From the NCBI GenBank assembly GCA_028280405.1, contig JANQLW010000054.1:1-64000 (forward strand): 64,000 nt of DNA, read 5' to 3'. The stretch comes from Bacteroidales bacterium. Its GTDB lineage: Bacteria > Bacteroidota > Bacteroidia > Bacteroidales > GCA-2711565. Made by a program: the position numbers and the translations under genes. The notes beneath the pieces are model-generated. The model saw nothing but the letters and a program-made list of their open reading frames with translations. It searched no databases and had not been told where the DNA came from. Within the stretch, counting starts at the first letter, position 1. Each line of letters starts with the position of its first letter. Positions 30,725 through 43,451 of the stretch are shown here, in pieces.

Positions 30725-31430
30725 CTTTTAATGATTTATTTAGTAGTCTTTTTATTTTAACCTGATTCCATATATATCCTGATATGAAACCGGTTAATAT
30801 TAGAACCAATATTAATAATGGCCCTTTGTATAATATTCCGTTTTCTATCTCATAGCCTGAGTTTACAGGTAATTTAAAAAGCTGTACAGATAGAATGATT
30901 GCTGCAATTAATTGAAAGATATGCAGTAGAAATTTTAATTCAATACGTAAGTCAAATTCGGGAATCAGGTACTTGAGGCCATACTTTAAAACCAAAAGAA
31001 TAAAAGGCAATAATAGTGCAATAGCTAAAGCCAGGGTTTTAAATGCAATATTGTGAATTTGTAAAAAAATGAAACTTTCAAAATAGAAAAGAGCCGGAAA
31101 AACCATGATTCCCGGAATATAAATTAAAAACTTAAAACCTTTTTTAACCTTTTCACCATAATGATTCCGAATCATAAAAATTGCAAGTAATACCCCGGCA
31201 ATTGCTTCGATTACAATTAAAACTACAAAATCAGTCATTAGCTGTATATCCATTAATCTGTCTTTAAACAGGGCGTAGCTTTGTTCTATGGCATAGGTAT
31301 GCATAAGAAATATAAATAAAGCACTAATTAAATACCACGCACCTGAAACTCTCCAATTATTGGTAAATCCTAATTGAACAGAAAACGAAATCATGGCTAA
31401 TATGAATATGATAATGATAAGACTTTCCAT
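30708..31430 (-). CDS. Multi-pass membrane protein of the hmu-like operon (HmuT-like)
   Basis: Multiple predicted TM segments; overlaps both neighbours' ends in the operon; assignment from position. Confidence 0.6.
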   Translation of the reverse strand: MESLIIIIFILAMISFSVQLGFTNNWRVSGAWYLISALFIFLMHTYAIEQSYALFKDRLMDIQLMTDFVVLIVIEAIAGVLLAIFMIRNHYGEKVKKGFKFLIYIPGIMVFPALFYFESFIFLQIHNIAFKTLALAIALLLPFILLVLKYGLKYLIPEFDLRIELKFLLHIFQLIAAIILSVQLFKLPVNSGYEIENGILYKGPLLILVLILTGFISGYIWNQVKIKRLLNKSLKDGRNN

Positions 31431-34400
31431 TATGCCTTTTTTCTTCTCCTGATAAACATTACGATTATGAAAAAAACAGCGATTGCTACAATCGCCAATA
31501 ACTTATAATTTGTCTTAAGATTTATATTTTCATTATTATCAACCTTTTCATTCTTCTCCTGTTTTAATACTACATTTTCCTTTTTCTTCTCTTTTGGAGC
31601 TTCCCTGACAGAGGTTATTTCTTTATTATATGATTGAGCTATTTCTTTGTTAAGGTTTTGACTTATAAAGTCTCTTAACTTGGCATTATCGCAAACAAAA
31701 CCGCTACATCCGGCTTCATGTTTCTTTACAAGCTCAGCGTGGAGTTTACTCATTTCTTTAATTTGTTCCTGACTAGCTTTCCAGAATCCTTTTCTGACCG
31801 TTTCGAGCATTACAGCTGTCATTTCCTGCAAGGCATAAGGGTTTTCCTTTTCAAAAAAGGAATGAACATCTAGCTGAAGTTTATCTTCTACATAAACATC
31901 ATAAAGGTCATTCCATAATTTATTTTCAATGACAGAAGGTTTCATGACATTCCATCCAAACGTATTTCTGAAAGTTTCTGCAAAACTCTCTGCTGAAGTA
32001 GCCCCACCTTTCATATATTCTTTAATATATCTTGGATTTAGTAAAGTTGTTTTGCTTTCAATACCTATCGCTTCTTTAAGGCTTTGAATCCTTGGATTTG
32101 AGGAATTCCGGAAATCGTTGAAATAAGATTCGGCATCCTTACCCGTAACTTCTTTTACAGCTAGGTTTAATCCTCCCATAAATTCATAGACATGATCGAG
32201 ACTCAAGGCTCCCCAATTATTTCCATGCCGGGGTTGAACAACCGCTTCAGTATTTAATAAAGCGGCTTCAAAAATACCTTTGCTAAAAGCTCCCCAATTA
32301 TCTTCCTGTCCGTAAACAGCTCCCATATTATTTATATAGGTTCTGGCTACTGATTGGGTACTATCCCAACGATCACTGTTTTCTACCATACCCATAATTG
32401 CTGCGCCATAGTTTCCATTGACTCCGCCAAATACCCGTTGAACAGATAATTCACGGGCTTCTTTAGGTGAAAGCCCCTTTTCAATTAAAAACTTTTCTGC
32501 ATCCGCTTTGCCTTTTGCAACAAAGTTTTTATTGTTTTTTGAAGAAGCTTCGGCTGCCATAGCTATGGCTCGGTTTATCATAAATAATCGGGATGCTGCC
32601 AAGTCGCGGGCTTGACCGGAAGTTTGTACAACTACATCAATTCTTGGCCGGCCCAATTCTTCTTCAGGTATTAATCTGATATCATTAACTTTTCCTCTTG
32701 GGGTCCAAATGGGTTCTACACCTAGCATATAAAGAATCTGAGCTATGGTCGTTCCTTCTGATTCGATAAAACTACCACCCCATAAGGTGAAACTGATTTT
32801 TTGCGGATATTCGCCATTGTGCTTGGATTGATAATCATTTAATAAAGAATGTGTAAGCTTTTTAGCAACCTTCCAGGCTTCCTTGGTTGGAGTTTGTTCT
32901 GCATTAATAGAATACAGATTTCTACCGGTTGGTACACTTTCCGGGTTTCCAACCGGATCACCTCCGGAAGAAGGGTGAACATAGCCTCCATTCAATACAT
33001 TGGAAATATTCTGCATTTCGAATGAAGGGCTGTTTTCAAGCTCGCCTTTTTTCTTTAGAATTGATTTTAAGGCCTGATCAAGGTTCAGGATAGCCTGCAT
33101 CAACTGCTCCTGTTTTTGATCTTTGTTCTTTCCCTTTTCAACTTTGGCATCTTTATTTATTGAATGAGAGTGTCCCGTAGCATGTGCTTTTGCTTTGGAA
33201 GTCGGATGGTTGACTTTAGCATATTTCCCTTTCTCCTTTTTAGAATCAGCAGAGGCTCTCATGGCAGCCATACGGCGTTTACGTGCTTCCATCTTAGCCT
33301 TTATTTGAGCAGCTTGCCACTCTTTTGCCTGTTTTAGTTCATTAGCCACTATGAGCGTATTGTGAACATTCTTTATGTTATTCTTACGAAGAATCTCTTT
33401 TATATAAGCCCGACTGACAGATAAATACTTATTTCTGAAAAATGGTTTGTCATCTAATTGAGACCTCTTTATTTTTCCTTTTAGGATATCTATTTCTGCG
33501 ATATTATATGCCAAAGCATCAATATGCATCATTAGCGTGGTTTCCTTAAGTTTATCCTTCGAGTAAGGGATACCCATGGTATACAATCCTCCTGTTATTT
33601 TTTCATGTTCCAATTCTGCCAGATAATTAGCCACCTTATCCATTTCTTCTTTAGAATATGGTTGATCCATTATACTATCCAAACCTAAATCCAGATGTAT
33701 TCCATTTTTAACAATTAATTCCTTAGCTGAAATGGCATATTGATTTTTGATAGCTCCCTTAACCCCATAGTATTTATTCAATTTATTTTGGAGTACCTGA
33801 TGATTTTGAGATGCTTTGGCTTCGATAAATGGTGGAGTTAAATAGGTAACTGTAGCTGCATAACTTCTGCGTTTCGCAATCATTGCTTCACCAATATTGC
33901 TAATGGTGTAAATATAGCTGTGGGGTGTCACCCCGATTAATGGATCTGTCCAGTCGTAGTCCGACAACGCAATCTGTTTTCCCGGAGTAAATTCGAGGCT
34001 TCCATGCGTTCCAAAGTGGAAGATGGCATCTGCTTTAAAGCCTTTTTGAATCCAAAGGTATGGTGCAATATAAGTGTGTGGAGGAGCTACTTTTGCTCCG
34101 TGTACCAGTTTAAAGTGATCATTCCCCAAACCGGGTAATGGCTGAGGAAGCAGAACGATATTCCCGAAACGTACTCTTGTTACAGCAATATGCTCCTTTT
34201 GATTTTTATAAACGGCCATATATGAACCGGGAGCCTTGCCATATCTGTTTTCTACATCTTTTATCAGAGATTCTGGCAGTATTTCTTTACACCAATTATT
34301 ATAAATAGAAATTTCTACTAATTCCGGATTTCCGGTTTTCAGGTATTGATCAAATGCCCCTTCGGCATAAGGGCCTAAAACAGGGCCTTCTTTCAATACA

Positions 34401-35674
34401 ATCTTTTCAAAAGAAGGGTAATCTTCGGGTAGGTTGCCCAAATCATACCCTTCTTTTTTTAAGCTAAGCAGCATATTGTGAAGTGATGGTAGGACTTCCA
34501 TATTTGCGGCAACCATGGCATTTTTACCTGGGCCTTTGAAGTATACAACAGCCAATTTTTTTTGGCTGTTATCCATCTTTTTCAGTTTTAAATAGTTTTC
34601 AGTTATTTCACCAAACTTCTTTAATCGATTGGGAATGGCTTTAAATAACAAATATCCTTTTTCATCTTCATATTGAGCAAATACGGCATAAGGTACAATC
34701 CCTCCGTCAAATTCAGGCATAGTTACACTTTGACTTAACAAACCTCCATGCATCCCCTGTTTATCGGTAAGCCATTCATTATACCTTTGGTGGACGGTCA
34801 CAGGACATAAAACCGGAACGTTTAATTTTTTTAAATAGGAAGTAATGGCCTTGGATGAGCCTCCCATTGTCAATCTACCGTGGGGCATGTAAATAATCAG
34901 GTCAGGATTGATTTCTTTCATATAATTTAAACGCCCCCTGAAACCCGAAACAGGATATAGATTAATATTCCTGCTTTCAAGTTCATCGATTAAGCTGTTA
35001 AGGTGTTCACGGTTTGCATTAAAGGGCCCGGGAATGCTGGTAAAAAGAATAACTTTATTATTCCCTTTTTTATGTATGTTTTTTTCAAGACAGTAATTCT
35101 CGAAATCTTTGACTTTTTCAAAAGCGATATGCTCATCTTTATGGAACAGAACATTTGAAGCAATTTCCAAAGGCTTGGCTGCCGTGTCTGTAAATGCAGT
35201 TTTATTATCTATTTTAGTTCTTATATAATGAAGAAGGTTTTTGTAGTTTTTTTTGCCGGCATTATCCAGATAAGCTTTAATTATTTCTTTTTGCTCATCA
35301 TTTACATTGGTTAGCTTTAAGGCCTTATTTGTGGAAGATTGTAAATAGATCGGAACTCCCTTTTCTCCAACCTCTTTTATATAAGTTTCCTGATCAGCGG
35401 TTAACTTTAGGCCCATCCCAAAAATGAGCAGCATATCATATTTTTTTAAATTGCTCAATTTTTTTGGATCAAGTGATTTTGTCTGAATGAAATAATGATC
35501 GCTTGAACGTGCAATTTTTGTATACAAGAACTCCGGATAGTTGACCAAGGCTATTTTAGTAGGAGAGATGTATTTAAAATAAATGGTTGCACTTGAGATT
35601 AAAAATAGTGAGATCAGTAGGATGAGTAAATATTTCTTTTTCATAATTAATAACAATTTAAAGATTGCCGGCAA
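31430..35674 (-). CDS. hmuS: CobN/magnesium-chelatase H-like protein (HmuS-like), N- and C-terminal TM segments; start probably at 35644 (MKKKYLLILL)
   Basis: VYFKGPGKNAMVAANMEVLPSLHNML, DAIFHFGTHGSLEFTPGKQ, ISFTLWGGSFIESEGTTIAQILYMLGVEPIWTPRGKV, QVFGGVNGNYGAAIM-type motifs; located in an HmuY/HmuR operon. Confidence 0.85.
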   Translation of the reverse strand: MPAIFKLLLIMKKKYLLILLISLFLISSATIYFKYISPTKIALVNYPEFLYTKIARSSDHYFIQTKSLDPKKLSNLKKYDMLLIFGMGLKLTADQETYIKEVGEKGVPIYLQSSTNKALKLTNVNDEQKEIIKAYLDNAGKKNYKNLLHYIRTKIDNKTAFTDTAAKPLEIASNVLFHKDEHIAFEKVKDFENYCLEKNIHKKGNNKVILFTSIPGPFNANREHLNSLIDELESRNINLYPVSGFRGRLNYMKEINPDLIIYMPHGRLTMGGSSKAITSYLKKLNVPVLCPVTVHQRYNEWLTDKQGMHGGLLSQSVTMPEFDGGIVPYAVFAQYEDEKGYLLFKAIPNRLKKFGEITENYLKLKKMDNSQKKLAVVYFKGPGKNAMVAANMEVLPSLHNMLLSLKKEGYDLGNLPEDYPSFEKIVLKEGPVLGPYAEGAFDQYLKTGNPELVEISIYNNWCKEILPESLIKDVENRYGKAPGSYMAVYKNQKEHIAVTRVRFGNIVLLPQPLPGLGNDHFKLVHGAKVAPPHTYIAPYLWIQKGFKADAIFHFGTHGSLEFTPGKQIALSDYDWTDPLIGVTPHSYIYTISNIGEAMIAKRRSYAATVTYLTPPFIEAKASQNHQVLQNKLNKYYGVKGAIKNQYAISAKELIVKNGIHLDLGLDSIMDQPYSKEEMDKVANYLAELEHEKITGGLYTMGIPYSKDKLKETTLMMHIDALAYNIAEIDILKGKIKRSQLDDKPFFRNKYLSVSRAYIKEILRKNNIKNVHNTLIVANELKQAKEWQAAQIKAKMEARKRRMAAMRASADSKKEKGKYAKVNHPTSKAKAHATGHSHSINKDAKVEKGKNKDQKQEQLMQAILNLDQALKSILKKKGELENSPSFEMQNISNVLNGGYVHPSSGGDPVGNPESVPTGRNLYSINAEQTPTKEAWKVAKKLTHSLLNDYQSKHNGEYPQKISFTLWGGSFIESEGTTIAQILYMLGVEPIWTPRGKVNDIRLIPEEELGRPRIDVVVQTSGQARDLAASRLFMINRAIAMAAEASSKNNKNFVAKGKADAEKFLIEKGLSPKEARELSVQRVFGGVNGNYGAAIMGMVENSDRWDSTQSVARTYINNMGAVYGQEDNWGAFSKGIFEAALLNTEAVVQPRHGNNWGALSLDHVYEFMGGLNLAVKEVTGKDAESYFNDFRNSSNPRIQSLKEAIGIESKTTLLNPRYIKEYMKGGATSAESFAETFRNTFGWNVMKPSVIENKLWNDLYDVYVEDKLQLDVHSFFEKENPYALQEMTAVMLETVRKGFWKASQEQIKEMSKLHAELVKKHEAGCSGFVCDNAKLRDFISQNLNKEIAQSYNKEITSVREAPKEKKKENVVLKQEKNEKVDNNENINLKTNYKLLAIVAIAVFFIIVMFIRRRKKA

Positions 35675-35734: not shown

Positions 35735-36421
35735 TTATTTCATTAAAGCATATTCTATTTTTATAATTCGCTCACTTTTAGTGCTGCCATAGAAGCTAAT
35801 AAATCTTAACTTATAAATATCTCCATTATTAAGTTTTACAATGTAGAAGTAATTTGTATTAACAGTATATGTAGGAGGCATTCCATTTATGTTTTTCCAT
35901 TCGTTATCTGCAATAGCATCAATAGCTCCACTATATTCATTTACACTTGTTATATCGGAAAGAGTGAGCTTAGCAAAGCTTTCGCTAATTGTATTTGCAT
36001 CATCACTTTCTGTATATTTGAATAAGCCAACTTTTATACTTTCTTTGGTATTTATAAGCGGTCCAGTTACTCCATATGCATCAGAGGCTCTATTGTATTT
36101 GGTAAATAAAAGATCCCAACCCGTCATATTCGTTTGGTCATTATATTTACTCATATCATCTTTGTTCAAATAGAATTGAGTCCATGAATCAGTATCGTAC
36201 ACCCCTGTTGCCACAGCATTTTCTTCTCCAAATTTGAAATAGATCTGGTGTTTATAAACTGTTTGTCCCATACCACCCCCTGGATCAGGGATATATTCAT
36301 AAAGCATATTAGCTTCAAAAGTTTTCATGCCATAATCTTTTGGGATTACCTGCTCGTCATCTTTGCTACAAGCAGTTAATATTCCTGTGATTACCACTAA
36401 AGATAAAATGATTCTTTTCAT
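35735..36421 (-). CDS. hmuY: HmuY family lipoprotein
   Basis: Lipoprotein signal (ITGILTACSKDD), WDLLFTKYN region, location between TonB receptor and CobN-like gene. Confidence 0.83.
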   Translation of the reverse strand: MKRIILSLVVITGILTACSKDDEQVIPKDYGMKTFEANMLYEYIPDPGGGMGQTVYKHQIYFKFGEENAVATGVYDTDSWTQFYLNKDDMSKYNDQTNMTGWDLLFTKYNRASDAYGVTGPLINTKESIKVGLFKYTESDDANTISESFAKLTLSDITSVNEYSGAIDAIADNEWKNINGMPPTYTVNTNYFYIVKLNNGDIYKLRFISFYGSTKSERIIKIEYALMK

Positions 36422-36439
36422 GATTTTATTGATTTATTG

Positions 36440-38674
36440 TTATTTAATTATTTTATAGCTTAAGTTTAGAAAGAAAGAACGGCCATAAGATACCGGTACA
36501 CCTGAACTGCTGCTGTGGGCACTTCCTCCGATATTTCTGTTTTGCTTTATTGTCTTTTCATTGAATAAGTTCTTTACTCCAAGAGTGGCATTTAAACGGT
36601 GTTTCAGAAACCTTTTTGATAATGAAATATTCATGATATGGAAAGGATCCTGAGAACCTTCCTTGATTTTTGAATCTGTATCCGTATAGAAAAATGGAAT
36701 CTTACCATTGTATTTATAATCTATATTGAGATTTGCTCCGCTACCTGTTTCTTTGATTTTTAAGCCGGCAAAGAAATCATGGGTCAAATTAAATCTTTCT
36801 GATCCGTTTTCTTTCGTATATGAGTTTAATCGGCCGGTCAATCCGTAGCCACCCCGAAGCTGGAAAAGTGTCTTATAAGTGTAAACTATTTCTAAATCCC
36901 CCCCAATAGATTCAAATTCAACAATGTTGTTATATTGATATCCTGTACTACCTTCCTTTTGAATCAGGGTAATCATATTCTTGATATCATTGTAATACAG
37001 TGATCCGCTTATTTTCCAAGCATGGTTTTTCTTTTTCGTATTGTACTCAAATGTGGTATTGTAATTATAGGAGCTTTCAGCTTTTAAGTCTTTATTACCG
37101 TATATTTCATGATTACTGTTAACAAATTCATAAAAAAGCTCTTTAATGCTTGGAGCTCTAAATCCTTTGGCAAATGAAGCCCTCCAGATAAAGTTCTCCG
37201 AAATATCCCATTTGGTATTAAATGAATAAACCAGAGGTGCATCGTATTTTGTATTATGAGCTAAACGCATACCCGGCTGAAATTCGAATGAACTAAAAGG
37301 CTTGTATTTTATATTTATAAACCCTGCATAATCCCCTAAAGACTGCTCATTGTCTTTAATTCTTGGCCCTTCCATTTCTTCAATATTGATATCTATCCCA
37401 CTTTGAAGAACAAGTTTATTTGGAACAAACGTATGTGTGAAAATGCCCCTAAACATAATCTGTGAAGCAACTTGAGATGTGATTTTATCGTCCCAGGTTT
37501 TTTCAAGGGTTCTTAAATCCTTGAAATAATCTTGTGATGAACGTTTATAATAATTATAAGCAGTTACAACATTCAAGTGGTTTTTTTCTGACCAGCTTCC
37601 GGTAATCCCTCCACTGAGGTCATAACGGTCGGTATAATAATAAGCATCAAATATTTTATACTCTTCCAAAATATTGCCTTTAAAAAAGAGTTTGTCTTTA
37701 TAGTATCCGGCTTTTGTATAAAGCCTCCAATCCTTTTTAGAATACGCATAGGTGAGCTTTGCCCGGTGAAGATCCTTTGGCTTCCAGTCCATCGACCTGG
37801 TTTGTTTATCAAAATCAACACCGCTAAAATGCTCATAACCTCCATCTATAGCCAAGCTATGATTACCCATTTTTTTTGAAACCTGTAAATCTCCGTTATA
37901 TCTGCCAACACTTTCCACGTAAGTTGAAAGCTGAGCCTCCAGAGCATGATATTTGTTTTGTTTTGTGATGAGGTTGATCGTGCCAGCCAATGCATTGTTC
38001 CCGTAAATTACGGACATTGGCCCTTCAATAACTTCAACTTGTGCAATATTTTCAAGCTTAACCTGACTTAAATCGATATTTCCGTTTAATCTTCCTATTA
38101 CCGGAACTCCGTCTATCATTACCTTCACATTTTGCCCGTTCATTCCCATCATTTCTATGCGGGAACCCAGAACCAAGTCGGTCGACATACGAATGTTGGC
38201 TTCAGAGATCAAAAGCTCACTTAAATTAGCTGCTCCTGATTGCCTGATCTTTTCTTTGGAAATCAGTTTTACTTTATATATTGAACTATCTACAGGCGTT
38301 GGTTTGTTAATCCCGTAAACTGTTACCTGATCCAGGTTGAAAGGACATTCTTTTATAATAAATGTATGGACTCCGGAATTTTTAGATTTGATATCGATCG
38401 TAAACACCTGCTCTTTATAACCAATCGCAGAAATAACTAAAGTCCCTTTTCCATTGACAAATTTATCTTCAAAGGTGAAATTTCCATCTGCATCAGCAAT
38501 GGTACCCTGCTTACTCTCTTTATGATAAATTGTTGCAAAGGATACGGCTTTCTTATCATCTGTAATTATTTTTCCTTTGATTTTTCCCGAAAGCAATGGC
38601 TGATTTGCAGAAGCAATTGCAGATAAGCAAATAAGTATAATTGTTAATAGTGATTTTTTCATTGATTGAAACAA
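36440..38674 (-). CDS. hmuR: TonB-dependent receptor (HmuR-like)
   Basis: CarboxypepD_reg-like N-terminus, plug (VKVMIDGVPVIGRLNGNIDLSQVKLENIAQVEVIEGPMSVIYGNNALAGTINLITK), C-terminal beta-barrel. Confidence 0.88.
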   Translation of the reverse strand: MFQSMKKSLLTIILICLSAIASANQPLLSGKIKGKIITDDKKAVSFATIYHKESKQGTIADADGNFTFEDKFVNGKGTLVISAIGYKEQVFTIDIKSKNSGVHTFIIKECPFNLDQVTVYGINKPTPVDSSIYKVKLISKEKIRQSGAANLSELLISEANIRMSTDLVLGSRIEMMGMNGQNVKVMIDGVPVIGRLNGNIDLSQVKLENIAQVEVIEGPMSVIYGNNALAGTINLITKQNKYHALEAQLSTYVESVGRYNGDLQVSKKMGNHSLAIDGGYEHFSGVDFDKQTRSMDWKPKDLHRAKLTYAYSKKDWRLYTKAGYYKDKLFFKGNILEEYKIFDAYYYTDRYDLSGGITGSWSEKNHLNVVTAYNYYKRSSQDYFKDLRTLEKTWDDKITSQVASQIMFRGIFTHTFVPNKLVLQSGIDINIEEMEGPRIKDNEQSLGDYAGFINIKYKPFSSFEFQPGMRLAHNTKYDAPLVYSFNTKWDISENFIWRASFAKGFRAPSIKELFYEFVNSNHEIYGNKDLKAESSYNYNTTFEYNTKKKNHAWKISGSLYYNDIKNMITLIQKEGSTGYQYNNIVEFESIGGDLEIVYTYKTLFQLRGGYGLTGRLNSYTKENGSERFNLTHDFFAGLKIKETGSGANLNIDYKYNGKIPFFYTDTDSKIKEGSQDPFHIMNISLSKRFLKHRLNATLGVKNLFNEKTIKQNRNIGGSAHSSSSGVPVSYGRSFFLNLSYKIIK

Positions 38675-38724: not shown

Positions 38725-38771
38725 CAAAATTAAAAACAGGCAGGCTGTCTTACAATCCCTAAAAAATGGGA
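38725..38771 (-). promoter_or_regulatory. hmuR promoter: regulatory box (38753-38771) plus -7 element TAATTTTG (38725-38732)
   Basis: Minus strand TCCCATTTTTTAGGGATTG - 20 nt - TAATTTTG; matches Bacteroidetes TTG/TAnnTTTG promoter architecture. Confidence 0.7.
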
Positions 38772-38888
38772 AAATAGGGCATTGGAAAAAATCTAATTTA
38801 TTTATTTGTAATTAGTCTAAACTAAAATAATTACTAGCTTTGCAGTTATAAAACAATACATCATTTAATTTTGGCTTGAATATCCCTA

Positions 38889-38907
38889 TCCCTATAAATG
38901 GGGATTG
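38889..38907 (+). promoter_or_regulatory. Same regulatory box upstream of the hemerythrin/LuxR pair
   Basis: TCCCTATAAATGGGGATTG; matches consensus TCCC-N7-R-GGGATTG. Confidence 0.6.
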
Positions 38908-38968
38908 GAGGTTAAGGATTAAAATGGTTTTGTTTATTTAATATGTAATTATGTTTGTATACCTATAA

Positions 38969-39688
38969 ATGAAAATGATCAATCGCAAATTCATTACAGC
39001 CGATATGAAAATGGCTGATATTATTCTGAGAAATGAGAAACTTGTATTGGTGATCCGTCGCTTTGGGATAAATTTGGGTTTCCGGAACAAAACTATTGAA
39101 GAACTTAGCAAAGAATACGATATTCATCTGGATTTGCTATTGCTGGTTGTAAACCTGTTTAATGATGATTCTTTAAGATATGCCAGTGTGAATGATGTTA
39201 CAATGATCCCTGGCCTGATAGATTATCTAAAAGCAGGACATCGGTATTATGTGCACGAAAAATTGCCTTATATTCAATCCCTGATCGGGAAGTTTGTTGA
39301 AGAAAGTAAGAATAGTAAGTCTTCTATGTTACTTGATTTCTTTAATGAGTATCGTGATGAAGTTATCGAGCATATTAATTATGAGGATACTGAAGTATAT
39401 CCATATATTGGAGCCTTATATGATAAACACCGGAACCAGGAATATAATAATGACTTTACAATAAAAGAGTATACAGAGCATCATTCCGATATTGAAGAAA
39501 AACTAACAGAGCTTAAATTGTTACTGATCAAATATTTCCCACATACTGAAAATGGAAATTTTTATCGTGACTTGATTTTACAGGAACTTTTTGATCTGGA
39601 GTATGATTTGAATGATCATGCCAATCTAGAAGATGATATTTTGGTTTCATTAGTTAAAAAAGTGGAAGAGGCTTATGAAACCCAATAA
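38969..39688 (+). CDS. Hemerythrin domain-containing protein with DUF542/ScdA-like N-terminus
   Basis: MADIILRNEKLVLVIRRFGINLGF (ScdA_N-like), H/E-rich HYVHEKLP, HINYEDTEVYPYI, EHHSDIEEKL, DHANLEDDILV. Confidence 0.8.
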   Translation: MKMINRKFITADMKMADIILRNEKLVLVIRRFGINLGFRNKTIEELSKEYDIHLDLLLLVVNLFNDDSLRYASVNDVTMIPGLIDYLKAGHRYYVHEKLPYIQSLIGKFVEESKNSKSSMLLDFFNEYRDEVIEHINYEDTEVYPYIGALYDKHRNQEYNNDFTIKEYTEHHSDIEEKLTELKLLLIKYFPHTENGNFYRDLILQELFDLEYDLNDHANLEDDILVSLVKKVEEAYETQ

Positions 39689-40289
39689 ACTTATCCTGAT
39701 AGTTGAGCGATCTACAATTATTTGCAAAGGTTTGAAAGAAATCCTTCTTAAAGCGATTCCCGGAATCCGGGTAAATGATATTGATATTTATGAAAATATT
39801 TGTGATCGTATTGAAACTGATAAGCCTAAAGCAATTATTTTAAACTCTATACTGCTAACTTCTATAGGGAATGAAAAGTTCAAGGAAATTTTGAATTGTT
39901 GTAAATCCAATCAGGTTGCAATTCTTGGCCTGATACATAGTTATTTTGATAATGCGATCGTGAAGCAATTCGACGCAATTATTTCAATTAATGACTCTAT
40001 AAAAACAGTTGTCGGAACAGTAAACAGAGAGTTAGCCAAAGACAGAAAAAGCAGTCAGGATCATTTTAATATTGATATTTCTCAAAGGGAAGAAGAAGTC
40101 ATTCGTTATATAGCCCTTGGATTTAGCAATAAAGAAATAGCGGATAAAATGTACATCAGTACGCATACTGTTATCTCCCACCGGAAAAACATAACCCGTA
40201 AGTTAGGAGTAAAATCTACCTCTGCGATTACCATTTATGCTGTTATTAATAAAATCATTGATGAAAATGATTTTAATGTTACGGTATAA
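39675..40289 (+). CDS. LuxR/NarL-family transcriptional regulator with degenerate receiver-like N-terminus
   Basis: C-terminal HTH: ISQREEEVIRYIALGFSNKEIADKMYISTHTVISHRKNITRKLGVKS; overlaps the hemerythrin gene by 14 nt. Confidence 0.9.
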   Translation: MKPNKLILIVERSTIICKGLKEILLKAIPGIRVNDIDIYENICDRIETDKPKAIILNSILLTSIGNEKFKEILNCCKSNQVAILGLIHSYFDNAIVKQFDAIISINDSIKTVVGTVNRELAKDRKSSQDHFNIDISQREEEVIRYIALGFSNKEIADKMYISTHTVISHRKNITRKLGVKSTSAITIYAVINKIIDENDFNVTV

Positions 40290-40391
40290 ATGTATTTGTA
40301 AAGAATAGATTATAAGAAACTTATAGCCTGAAACCAAGGGCCTGTAACATTAATTCGAAGTCATTACTTTTAATCACTTACCTTCCAAATA

Positions 40392-40438
40392 TCCCAACTT
40401 TTAGGGATTGTCAGGCTTGTTTAAGCTTGATAATTTTG
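40392..40438 (+). promoter_or_regulatory. Flavodoxin promoter: regulatory box (40392-40410) plus -7 element TAATTTTG (40431-40438)
   Basis: TCCCAACTTTTAGGGATTG - 20 nt - TAATTTTG; same spacing as hmuR promoter. Confidence 0.7.
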
Positions 40439-40466: not shown

Positions 40467-40973
40467 ATGCAAAGTATAGGAATATTTTATGGCTCAACCA
40501 CCGGAAATACGGAAGCAGCCGCAAAAATGATTCAAAAAGAATTTGGAGAAGACTTAGCAAAGGTTTTTGATGTGGCCGATGCAAATTCATCCGACCTTGA
40601 AGGATTCTCAAATTTGGTATTTGGAGCCTCTACATGGGGGATAGGTGATATGCAGGATGATTTTGCCGACTTTTTGTCGGAAGTTTCCTCTGCTAATTTG
40701 GAAGGGAAAAAAGTAGCCATTTTTGGTTATGGCGATCAAGATGCTTACGAGGATTCTTTTGTAGATGCCATTGGTGAAATCTATGAAACCCTTGATGGAA
40801 AATCTTGTGAAGTTGTAGGAACAGTTTCTACTGATGGATACAGACATGTTGAATCCAGAGGGGAAGTTGATGGAAAATTTGTAGGGCTTCCTTTGGATGA
40901 AGAAAACCAATCCAATCTTTCGGATGAAAGGATTAAAACATGGGTTGCTGAATTGAAAAAACAGTTTAATTAG
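40467..40973 (+). CDS. fldA: Flavodoxin
   Basis: IGIFYGSTTGNTEAAAKMI FMN phosphate loop; LVFGASTWGIGDMQDDFADFL. Confidence 0.95.
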   Translation: MQSIGIFYGSTTGNTEAAAKMIQKEFGEDLAKVFDVADANSSDLEGFSNLVFGASTWGIGDMQDDFADFLSEVSSANLEGKKVAIFGYGDQDAYEDSFVDAIGEIYETLDGKSCEVVGTVSTDGYRHVESRGEVDGKFVGLPLDEENQSNLSDERIKTWVAELKKQFN

Positions 40974-41116: not shown

Positions 41117-41512
41117 ATGATTATTAAATGTACAGATTATAAATCCCCGGAAATGCAGGTTTTAATGCATCATATTTATGAATATAAAAAAGGGCTGAGA
41201 AGTTTGGTTTTACACACAATGAGTATAAAAGAACAATTGATGGCTGAGTACCTTCTTAGAAGAAAGGGGATTGATTTTGCTGTGCAGAAAGTGAATGAAC
41301 GTAAAATTAATGTCTTTTTCGGGAATGAACAATGTGTAAGAATTGTCAGGTCATTTGATAAGCAATCATTATCGGAGTTTACGGATGAACAGGATTTTAT
41401 TCTGGGTGTCATGTTGGGTTATGATCGGAATCAGCAATGTGATCGCTACATTAAACGTAAAGGCATTCAAATGAATAATGATAACATTAATAATTACGCA
41501 CTATCCTGTTAA
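41117..41512 (+). CDS. DUF2023 family protein (flavodoxin neighbour)
   Basis: MQVLMHHIYEYKKGLRSLVLHTM...EQDFILGVMLGYDRNQQCDRYIKRK; conserved position next to flavodoxin. Confidence 0.75.
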   Translation: MIIKCTDYKSPEMQVLMHHIYEYKKGLRSLVLHTMSIKEQLMAEYLLRRKGIDFAVQKVNERKINVFFGNEQCVRIVRSFDKQSLSEFTDEQDFILGVMLGYDRNQQCDRYIKRKGIQMNNDNINNYALSC

Positions 41513-42896: not shown

Positions 42897-43451
42897 TTAT
42901 TGAAAATTATTGTAAATGGTTCCATTGCTTTCAGGGCAGTTTTCAATTTTTACTTCTCCATGATGGGCATCAATAATGAGCTTTACAGCAGCTAAACCTA
43001 AACCAAATCCTTCAGAATGATGCATTACTTCGTCAGCACCAAAGTAATCAAATAGTTTTTGCTTTGCCTCTTCTGATAAACCGGGCCCTGAATCGTTTAT
43101 TGAACAAATGATTCTATCCGGTTCATTTTTACATCTAATATTAATCATTCCTCCCTGCGGTGTATATCTGATTGCATTATCTAATATGTTTTCAAAACAT
43201 ATTTTAATTAAATCAGGAACCAGTTTTATTTGGACATTTTCATCATCAACTTCCTTATTTAATTGTTCTCTTAAAAGTTTGCTATAGGTTTCAGCAGATC
43301 TCTTATTTAGTTTAAATTGTTGTTCAATATAATCTGATTCTATTTTTTTGATAAATTGATGAACGGCAAAAAAAACTATTAAGATGATAATGAGAGAGAT
43401 TGAAAGAAAGTTATAAATATATAAACGGGATTTTTTAGTAATAGGCGGCAT
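42897..43451 (-). CDS. Membrane-anchored HATPase_c protein (histidine-kinase-like, lacks recognisable H-box)
   Basis: N-terminal TM; IKICFENILDNAIRYTPQGG (N box), NDSGPGLS (G1), EGFGLGLAAVKLIIDAHHGEV (G2). Confidence 0.8.
   Translation of the reverse strand: MPPITKKSRLYIYNFLSISLIIILIVFFAVHQFIKKIESDYIEQQFKLNKRSAETYSKLLREQLNKEVDDENVQIKLVPDLIKICFENILDNAIRYTPQGGMINIRCKNEPDRIICSINDSGPGLSEEAKQKLFDYFGADEVMHHSEGFGLGLAAVKLIIDAHHGEVKIENCPESNGTIYNNFQ

Follow-up and report, generated by a model that had tools for sequence, protein, structure and literature searches.

A conserved, promoter-locked box at iron and haem genes of Bacteroidota, a probable operator of a hemerythrin-linked LuxR regulator of CdhR type

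The window analysed here, a whole stretch of 64,000 nucleotides from a Bacteroidales bacterium, contains a haem uptake and flavodoxin locus with three copies of an inverted-repeat box. The combination of this box, 20 nt after its trailing TTG and a TAnnTTTG −7 element is a real, promoter-locked element and not a local curiosity. Judged from sequence comparison, the box is very probably the operator of a CdhR-type LuxR regulator that would activate hmuR(YS) and fldA at low iron, on a signal from a hemerythrin. The locus is divergent: genes for HmuR, HmuY and an HmuS-like CobN protein are read one way, and those for the hemerythrin, the LuxR protein, flavodoxin, DUF2023 and DUF6686 the other way. 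Its features are as follows.

31430..35674, minus strand: HmuS-like CobN/Mg-chelatase family protein, in the putative target operon
35735..36421, minus strand: HmuY-like haemophore, in the putative target operon
36440..38674, minus strand: HmuR-like TonB-dependent receptor, putative target
38725..38732, minus strand: −7 element TAATTTTG of the hmuR promoter
38753..38771, minus strand: box TCCCATTTTTTAGGGATTG at the promoter of hmuR (TonB-dependent receptor)
38889..38907, plus strand: box TCCCTATAAATGGGGATTG, 5′ of the hemerythrin-LuxR operon
38969..39688, plus strand: RIC-like hemerythrin (HHE) protein, proposed diiron sensor partner (Pfam Hemerythrin; ScdA/YtfE homology)
39675..40289, plus strand: CdhR-type NarL/FixJ-family LuxR regulator, proposed box binder (GerE domain, profile, PDB matches, model)
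40392..40410, plus strand: box TCCCAACTTTTAGGGATTG at the fldA promoter
40431..40438, plus strand: −7 element TAATTTTG of the fldA promoter
40467..40973, plus strand: flavodoxin FldA, putative target
41117..41512, plus strand: DUF2023 protein, 3′ of fldA

A 184-aa open reading frame at 42897-43451 (minus strand) resembles the ATPase portion at the C-terminus of histidine kinases and is possibly truncated. Five genomes of the same genus (G001–G005), of which two are essentially complete, gave no CdhR match at E ≤ 1e-15, so that the locus may be patchy within the genus.

The three 19-mers named by the original prediction were confirmed in position and strand, as was its claim that, at both hmuR and fldA, exactly 20 nt separate the TTG of the box from TAATTTTG. 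The core, TCCC-N8-GGGA, is indeed a 16-bp inverted repeat, with a 7-2-7 arrangement; the ‘R’ written into the predicted motif (TCCC-N7-R) is merely one position of the variable N8. In the 3.87-Mb genome, TCCC-N8-GGGATTG has four matches (two in the reversed control), three of which lie within 1.66 kb; the Poisson probability of at least three matches in a segment of that size is about 8e-10, and base composition predicts 0.008 matches in the window. When the TTG is not required, the box followed by 23 nt and TAnnTTTG occurs at two sites genome-wide, those of hmuR and fldA, and nowhere in the control. Both promoters have the Bacteroidota primary-sigma pattern, a TAnnTTTG −7 element with TTG 20 nt upstream. 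In this genome the box is restricted to the hmuR/hemerythrin/fldA locus, and feoB has no box, also when the TACC-type form is sought.

A generalised pattern in which base 2 and the position opposite it in the repeat are free, T-N-CC-N8-GG-N-ATTG-N20-TAnnTTTG, gave 112 matches in 295 Bacteroidales genomes and three in the reversed control, and the matches precede iron and haem genes. The enrichment in relatives that the original prediction called for was thus found: the box exceeds background frequency and is present at related promoters. The exact form, TCCC..GGGATTG, gave few boxes at the hemerythrin promoters of relatives, because most of them carry a TACC..GGTA form; an initial search with the LuxR protein among named genomes had returned few relevant loci and many unrelated LuxR proteins. 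Scanned at spacings of N16 to N24, the TACC form had 87 matches (75 at N20, six at N19, five at N21 and one at N22), with one in the reversed control. Only six of 110 analysed sites fall within long open reading frames, and 104 (about 94%) lie outside. The commonest first gene behind the box encodes FeoB/FeoAB (30/102); other recurring first genes encode TonB receptors, including HmuR-like ones, Fer4_13/DUF1858 (ferredoxin-like) proteins, TetR, the hemerythrin (or hemerythrin-LuxR), FldA and DUF6686.

Two further protein families recur directly behind the box, one of about 120 aa and one of 394–442 aa in complete cases (loci L159, L187 and L227, and L121, L156 and L207). Pfam and NCBIfam gave no name for these two target clusters (about 120 aa; 400–440 aa), which are probably new iron-regulated proteins.

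The pattern extends beyond the order, occurring in 121 of 395 genomes of the class with one match in the control. The non-Bacteroidales sites sampled precede genes for TonB receptors, HmuY-family and related secreted proteins, DUF4856, CbiX-like proteins and methyltransferases. In 13 genomes outside Bacteroidales (G303, G317, G320, G363, G368, G395, G398, G427, G430, G431, G513, G522 and G538), a CdhR-like LuxR gene lies at most about 1.1 kb from a box and mostly within less than 150 bp; with genomes of about 3.5 Mb, chance adjacency is estimated to account for a small fraction of one case. CdhR-like proteins (profile E ≤ 1e-28) are also commoner in box genomes outside the order (33/77 v 11/60, P = 0.003). 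At some sites outside Bacteroidales (L366, G464, G607, G646, G665 and G634), the interval from box to −7 element holds a Fur-like palindrome, TTTAGAATGATTCTAAA, which suggests that Fur and the box activator converge there in apparent dual control.

Aligned sites read TACC[T/A]A-N4-T[A/T]GGTA-TTG, with the general half-sites T[A/C]CC-N8-GG[T/G]A; columns 2 and 15 and columns 6 and 11 covary as inverted-repeat partners. The two inverted heptamers stand 2 bp apart, which is the 7-2-7 arrangement of NarL-type sites. NarL heptamers have the consensus TACYYMT; the half-sites of the window agree with it at four to six of seven positions, and agreement is better for the TACC-type sites in relatives. 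The box of one relative, TACCCCTAAAGTGGTA, is nearly identical to an engineered NarL 7-2-7 site, TACCCCTAAAGGGGTA (PMC4549865), beside which TACCCCTAAAGTGGTATTG, carried by one genome, can also be set. Activating 7-2-7 sites lie at about −40 to −49 at napF and about −38 to −47 at yeaR (PMC4549865), and a box ending at a −33 TTG would sit similarly. As proposed, the system shares with the NarL/NarP sites of E. coli the inverted heptamers, the 2-bp spacer, a GerE-domain dimer and a position near −40. It differs in its iron and haem targets, in the −33 TTG fused to the site and in the Bacteroidota TAnnTTTG promoter; in the window it differs also in having a hemerythrin partner instead of NarX/NarQ and a protein without the phospho-acceptor Asp.

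The LuxR protein has a GerE helix–turn–helix domain scoring well above the Pfam cut-off (PF00196, 63.3 v 23.5 bits), with a receiver-like fold fused N-terminally; in PDB matches, its profile spans the full length of VraR and NarL. The AlphaFold model (pLDDT 82.6) has alternating strands and helices, and the best Foldseek matches are LiaR, VraR and NarL. The phospho-acceptor position is occupied by N57 instead of Asp, so the protein is NarL-like in fold and DNA site and is not a canonical phospho-response regulator. Asp is found at this position in 16 of 105 hemerythrin-linked proteins; outside the order, 32 of 36 relatives have it. The gene forms a two-gene operon with the hemerythrin gene, as is characteristic of the CdhR family; this architecture and published synteny suggest a CdhR-type protein orthologous to PG1237.

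The hemerythrin resembles ScdA/YtfE and shares with RIC/YtfE/ScdA proteins a four-helix diiron hemerythrin-like domain and an N-terminal ScdA-type region. Its six diiron ligands (H91, H135, E139, H172, H217 and E221) are invariant in all 29 aligned sequences. In the examined loci, proteins of the window type differ from RIC/YtfE/ScdA in that they always occur as a pair with, or fused to, a LuxR regulator, and the window protein scores far below the RIC cut-off (TIGR03652, 56.7 v 204.7 bits); from these two features, it is probably a signalling derivative. The two genes are adjacent in most inspected Bacteroidales loci and fused into a single protein in three Prevotellaceae/Bacteroidaceae loci (L010–L012). 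At L010, a near-box, TCACCACTTTTAGGGATTG, is followed by N20 and TAATTTTG upstream, on the opposite strand. The nearest precedent for a hemerythrin-domain iron sensor would be mammalian FBXL5, by analogy only, its output (ubiquitin ligase) being unrelated.

Among the 295 Bacteroidales genomes, the hemerythrin partner is enriched in box genomes (63/203 v 12/92, P = 0.0009). Twelve of the 75 box genomes have no detectable hemerythrin, some assemblies being incomplete and some sites being chance matches, and FeoAB boxes occur in G159 and G167 without a clear CdhR; given these 12 genomes, co-occurrence is an enrichment and not a rule. A stricter rule, that the box occurs only where CdhR is present, held for the initial set of 59 genomes (13 v 0, P = 0.002) and fails in the 295. 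The window protein has Ser at residue 168 of the recognition helix, as do the proteins of G172, G201 and G232, all with TCCC/GGGA boxes; where the boxes are TACC/GGTA, the residue is mostly Thr. The full TCCC/GGGA form accounts for three of six symmetric sites in genomes with S-type proteins only, against two of 57 in those with T-type only (P = 0.005, in a comparison that ignores phylogeny). In G229 the two protein types occur together, as do the two box types: its S-type CdhR gene directly adjoins a TCCC..GGGATTG box and DUF6686, and a TACC box lies at FeoAB. The residue switches between Ser and Thr about 18 times on the tree, so the association is not that of a single clade; together these few sites are suggestive of a TCCC specificity conferred by S168. 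The genome of the window holds a second hemerythrin-LuxR pair, of T168 type (L115, contig C58:100273-101605), with no recognisable box upstream, including the T-type form.

CdhR has been reported as an activator of hmu in P. gingivalis (PMC10101095). Another paper calls PG1237 a repressor, yet cites a reference that has ‘activator’ in its title (PMC2671838); of three published statements on the sign of CdhR in P. gingivalis, two conflict. Low iron induces the hmu genes BT0491-99, the flavodoxin-DUF2023 pair BT0516-17 and the hemerythrin-regulator (cdhR) pair BT0519-20 in B. thetaiotaomicron, hmu and fldA-DUF2023 in P. intermedia, and the flavodoxin PG1858 and PG1236-38 in P. gingivalis (PMC10434189). 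The fldA-DUF2023 pair is described as low-iron-induced in Bacteroidales, and the low-iron stimulons also include TetR-ABC operons and FeoB (PMC10434189). The gene set of the window matches the low-iron-induced sets of all three species. It has in common with CdhR (PG1237) and BT0519-0520 the hemerythrin-LuxR two-gene operon (PG1236-37) and, by prediction, hmu regulation and low-iron induction together with flavodoxin; the proposed hemerythrin-linked signalling and the reach of the box to feoAB and fldA go beyond the literature consulted on them. The 2023 transcriptomes of three Bacteroidota left iron control of hmuYR through CdhR unclear, since iron binding by CdhR had not been demonstrated (PMC10434189). 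No published CdhR operator was found in the open-access literature searched, which did not cover Wu 2009 and Chawla 2010.

According to the proposed mechanism, the GerE-domain dimer of the LuxR protein would bind the two heptamers; with the trailing TTG as −33 element, the dimer would lie at roughly −50 to −35 from the transcription start. Bound there, it is predicted to activate RNA polymerase at the TAnnTTTG promoters of hmuR(YS) and fldA, and it probably tunes its own hemerythrin-LuxR operon. Since the receiver lacks the phospho-acceptor Asp, the signal most likely comes from the co-encoded diiron hemerythrin and not from a kinase. The metal state of the hemerythrin would reflect cellular iron (or O2/redox) and be relayed by protein contact, and the regulon would be turned on at low iron. 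Signalling from hemerythrin to LuxR is suggested by the pairing, the fusion, the ligand conservation and the decay of the receiver. Binding of the LuxR protein at the boxes and the activating direction are predictions; the latter agrees with the reported activation of hmu by CdhR (PMC10101095) and with low-iron induction (PMC10434189). The original idea that one regulator serves haem uptake, flavodoxin and the hemerythrin/LuxR pair appears, from the DNA and protein sequences, well supported by the enrichment, the locked spacing, the iron and haem targets and the LuxR adjacency. The LuxR protein it put forward seems the best candidate: such a gene adjoins the box in the 13 genomes outside the order, and the geometry is that of the NarL family.

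A wider version of this mechanism, which we would place somewhat below even odds, holds that the two proteins form a split sensor of iron (or iron/O2), in which a RIC-derived diiron hemerythrin contacts a phospho-dead NarL-type regulator, throughout Bacteroidota. The pair would control an iron and haem regulon of feoAB, hmu, flavodoxin, ferredoxin-like and TetR-ABC genes by way of a 7-2-7 operator joined to the −33 element, the S168 pairs reading TCCC/GGGA boxes and the T168 pairs TACC/GGTA boxes. The window pair would then be a paralog specialised for haem and flavodoxin.

The box of the hemerythrin-LuxR operon may act differently. The original prediction saw a weaker −7 match there; in fact there is no TAnnTTTG 20 nt downstream of this box, and its architecture is unlike that of hmuR and fldA. 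Perfect −7 elements lie 5′ of it, at 38835 (TAGCTTTG) and 38866 (TAATTTTG), and farther 3′, at 38950 (TATGTTTG). The box lies about 16 nt downstream of the element at 38866-38873, so a bound regulator would block its own transcription. Auto-repression at this one box is therefore a serious possibility, though we consider it the less probable one: the hemerythrin gene of another locus (L127/G026) has the activating layout TACCTATATGTAGGTATTG-N20-TAATTTTG 17 nt before the gene, and low iron induces hemerythrin-cdhR as it does the targets (PMC10434189). An inverted repeat, TTAGTCTAAACTAA (38811-38824), adjoins TAGCTTTG upstream of the box; with the −7 elements at 38835 and 38866, it possibly forms a separate promoter, perhaps of Fur type, that serves the sensor and regulator genes.

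For the box as a whole, another NarL/FixJ regulator, controlled by a kinase and responsive, for example, to anaerobiosis or nitrite, could be the true reader, with the CdhR genes as mere neighbours or cousins. The site is a generic NarL 7-2-7 site (PMC4549865), the adjacent LuxR proteins outside Bacteroidales mostly keep the phospho-acceptor Asp, and some box genomes are without hemerythrin-CdhR. The targets, however, are iron and haem genes and not those of nitrate respiration, and a CdhR-type gene is linked to the box in the window and in the 13 genomes outside the order; in G229, moreover, where a T-type copy is also present and FeoAB has a TACC box, the S-type CdhR adjoins the TCCC box. 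This alternative is accordingly unlikely.

Still less likely is an operator of an iron-responsive repressor, Fur- or DtxR-like, that blocks the −33 element. Iron-regulated targets and the −33 overlap would suit such a repressor too, and several sites outside the order have the palindrome TTTAGAATGATTCTAAA between the box and the −7 element; where present, however, it is a separate element beside the box. The box itself has letters that partly agree with the NarL heptamer and 2-bp spacing and is by eye unlike a Fur box; Fur boxes are AT-rich, and the DtxR box is also unlike it. The earlier judgement that this is not a Fur or FNR site appears to hold for the box, the Fur-like palindromes being its neighbours outside the order. 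A fixed distance to the −7 element together with TTG is typical of polymerase-contacting activators, and CdhR is a reported hmu activator (PMC10101095). That the three boxes are a coincidence of one AT-rich locus is negligibly probable: the short bare 16-bp core reached three matches in three of 100 window shuffles, but the genome-wide clustering, the recurrence over hundreds of genomes with a near-zero reversed control (112 v 3), a spacing locked at 20 ± 1 and the enrichment in 395 class genomes refute it.

With an operator of fixed spacing, a list of targets and a diiron partner for the regulator, the question of how iron acts through CdhR is open to specific experiments. The box offers a prediction of iron regulons from sequence alone in Bacteroidota, a dominant group in gut, oral and environmental communities, and it points to an iron-control system that is independent of Fur and stands beside it.
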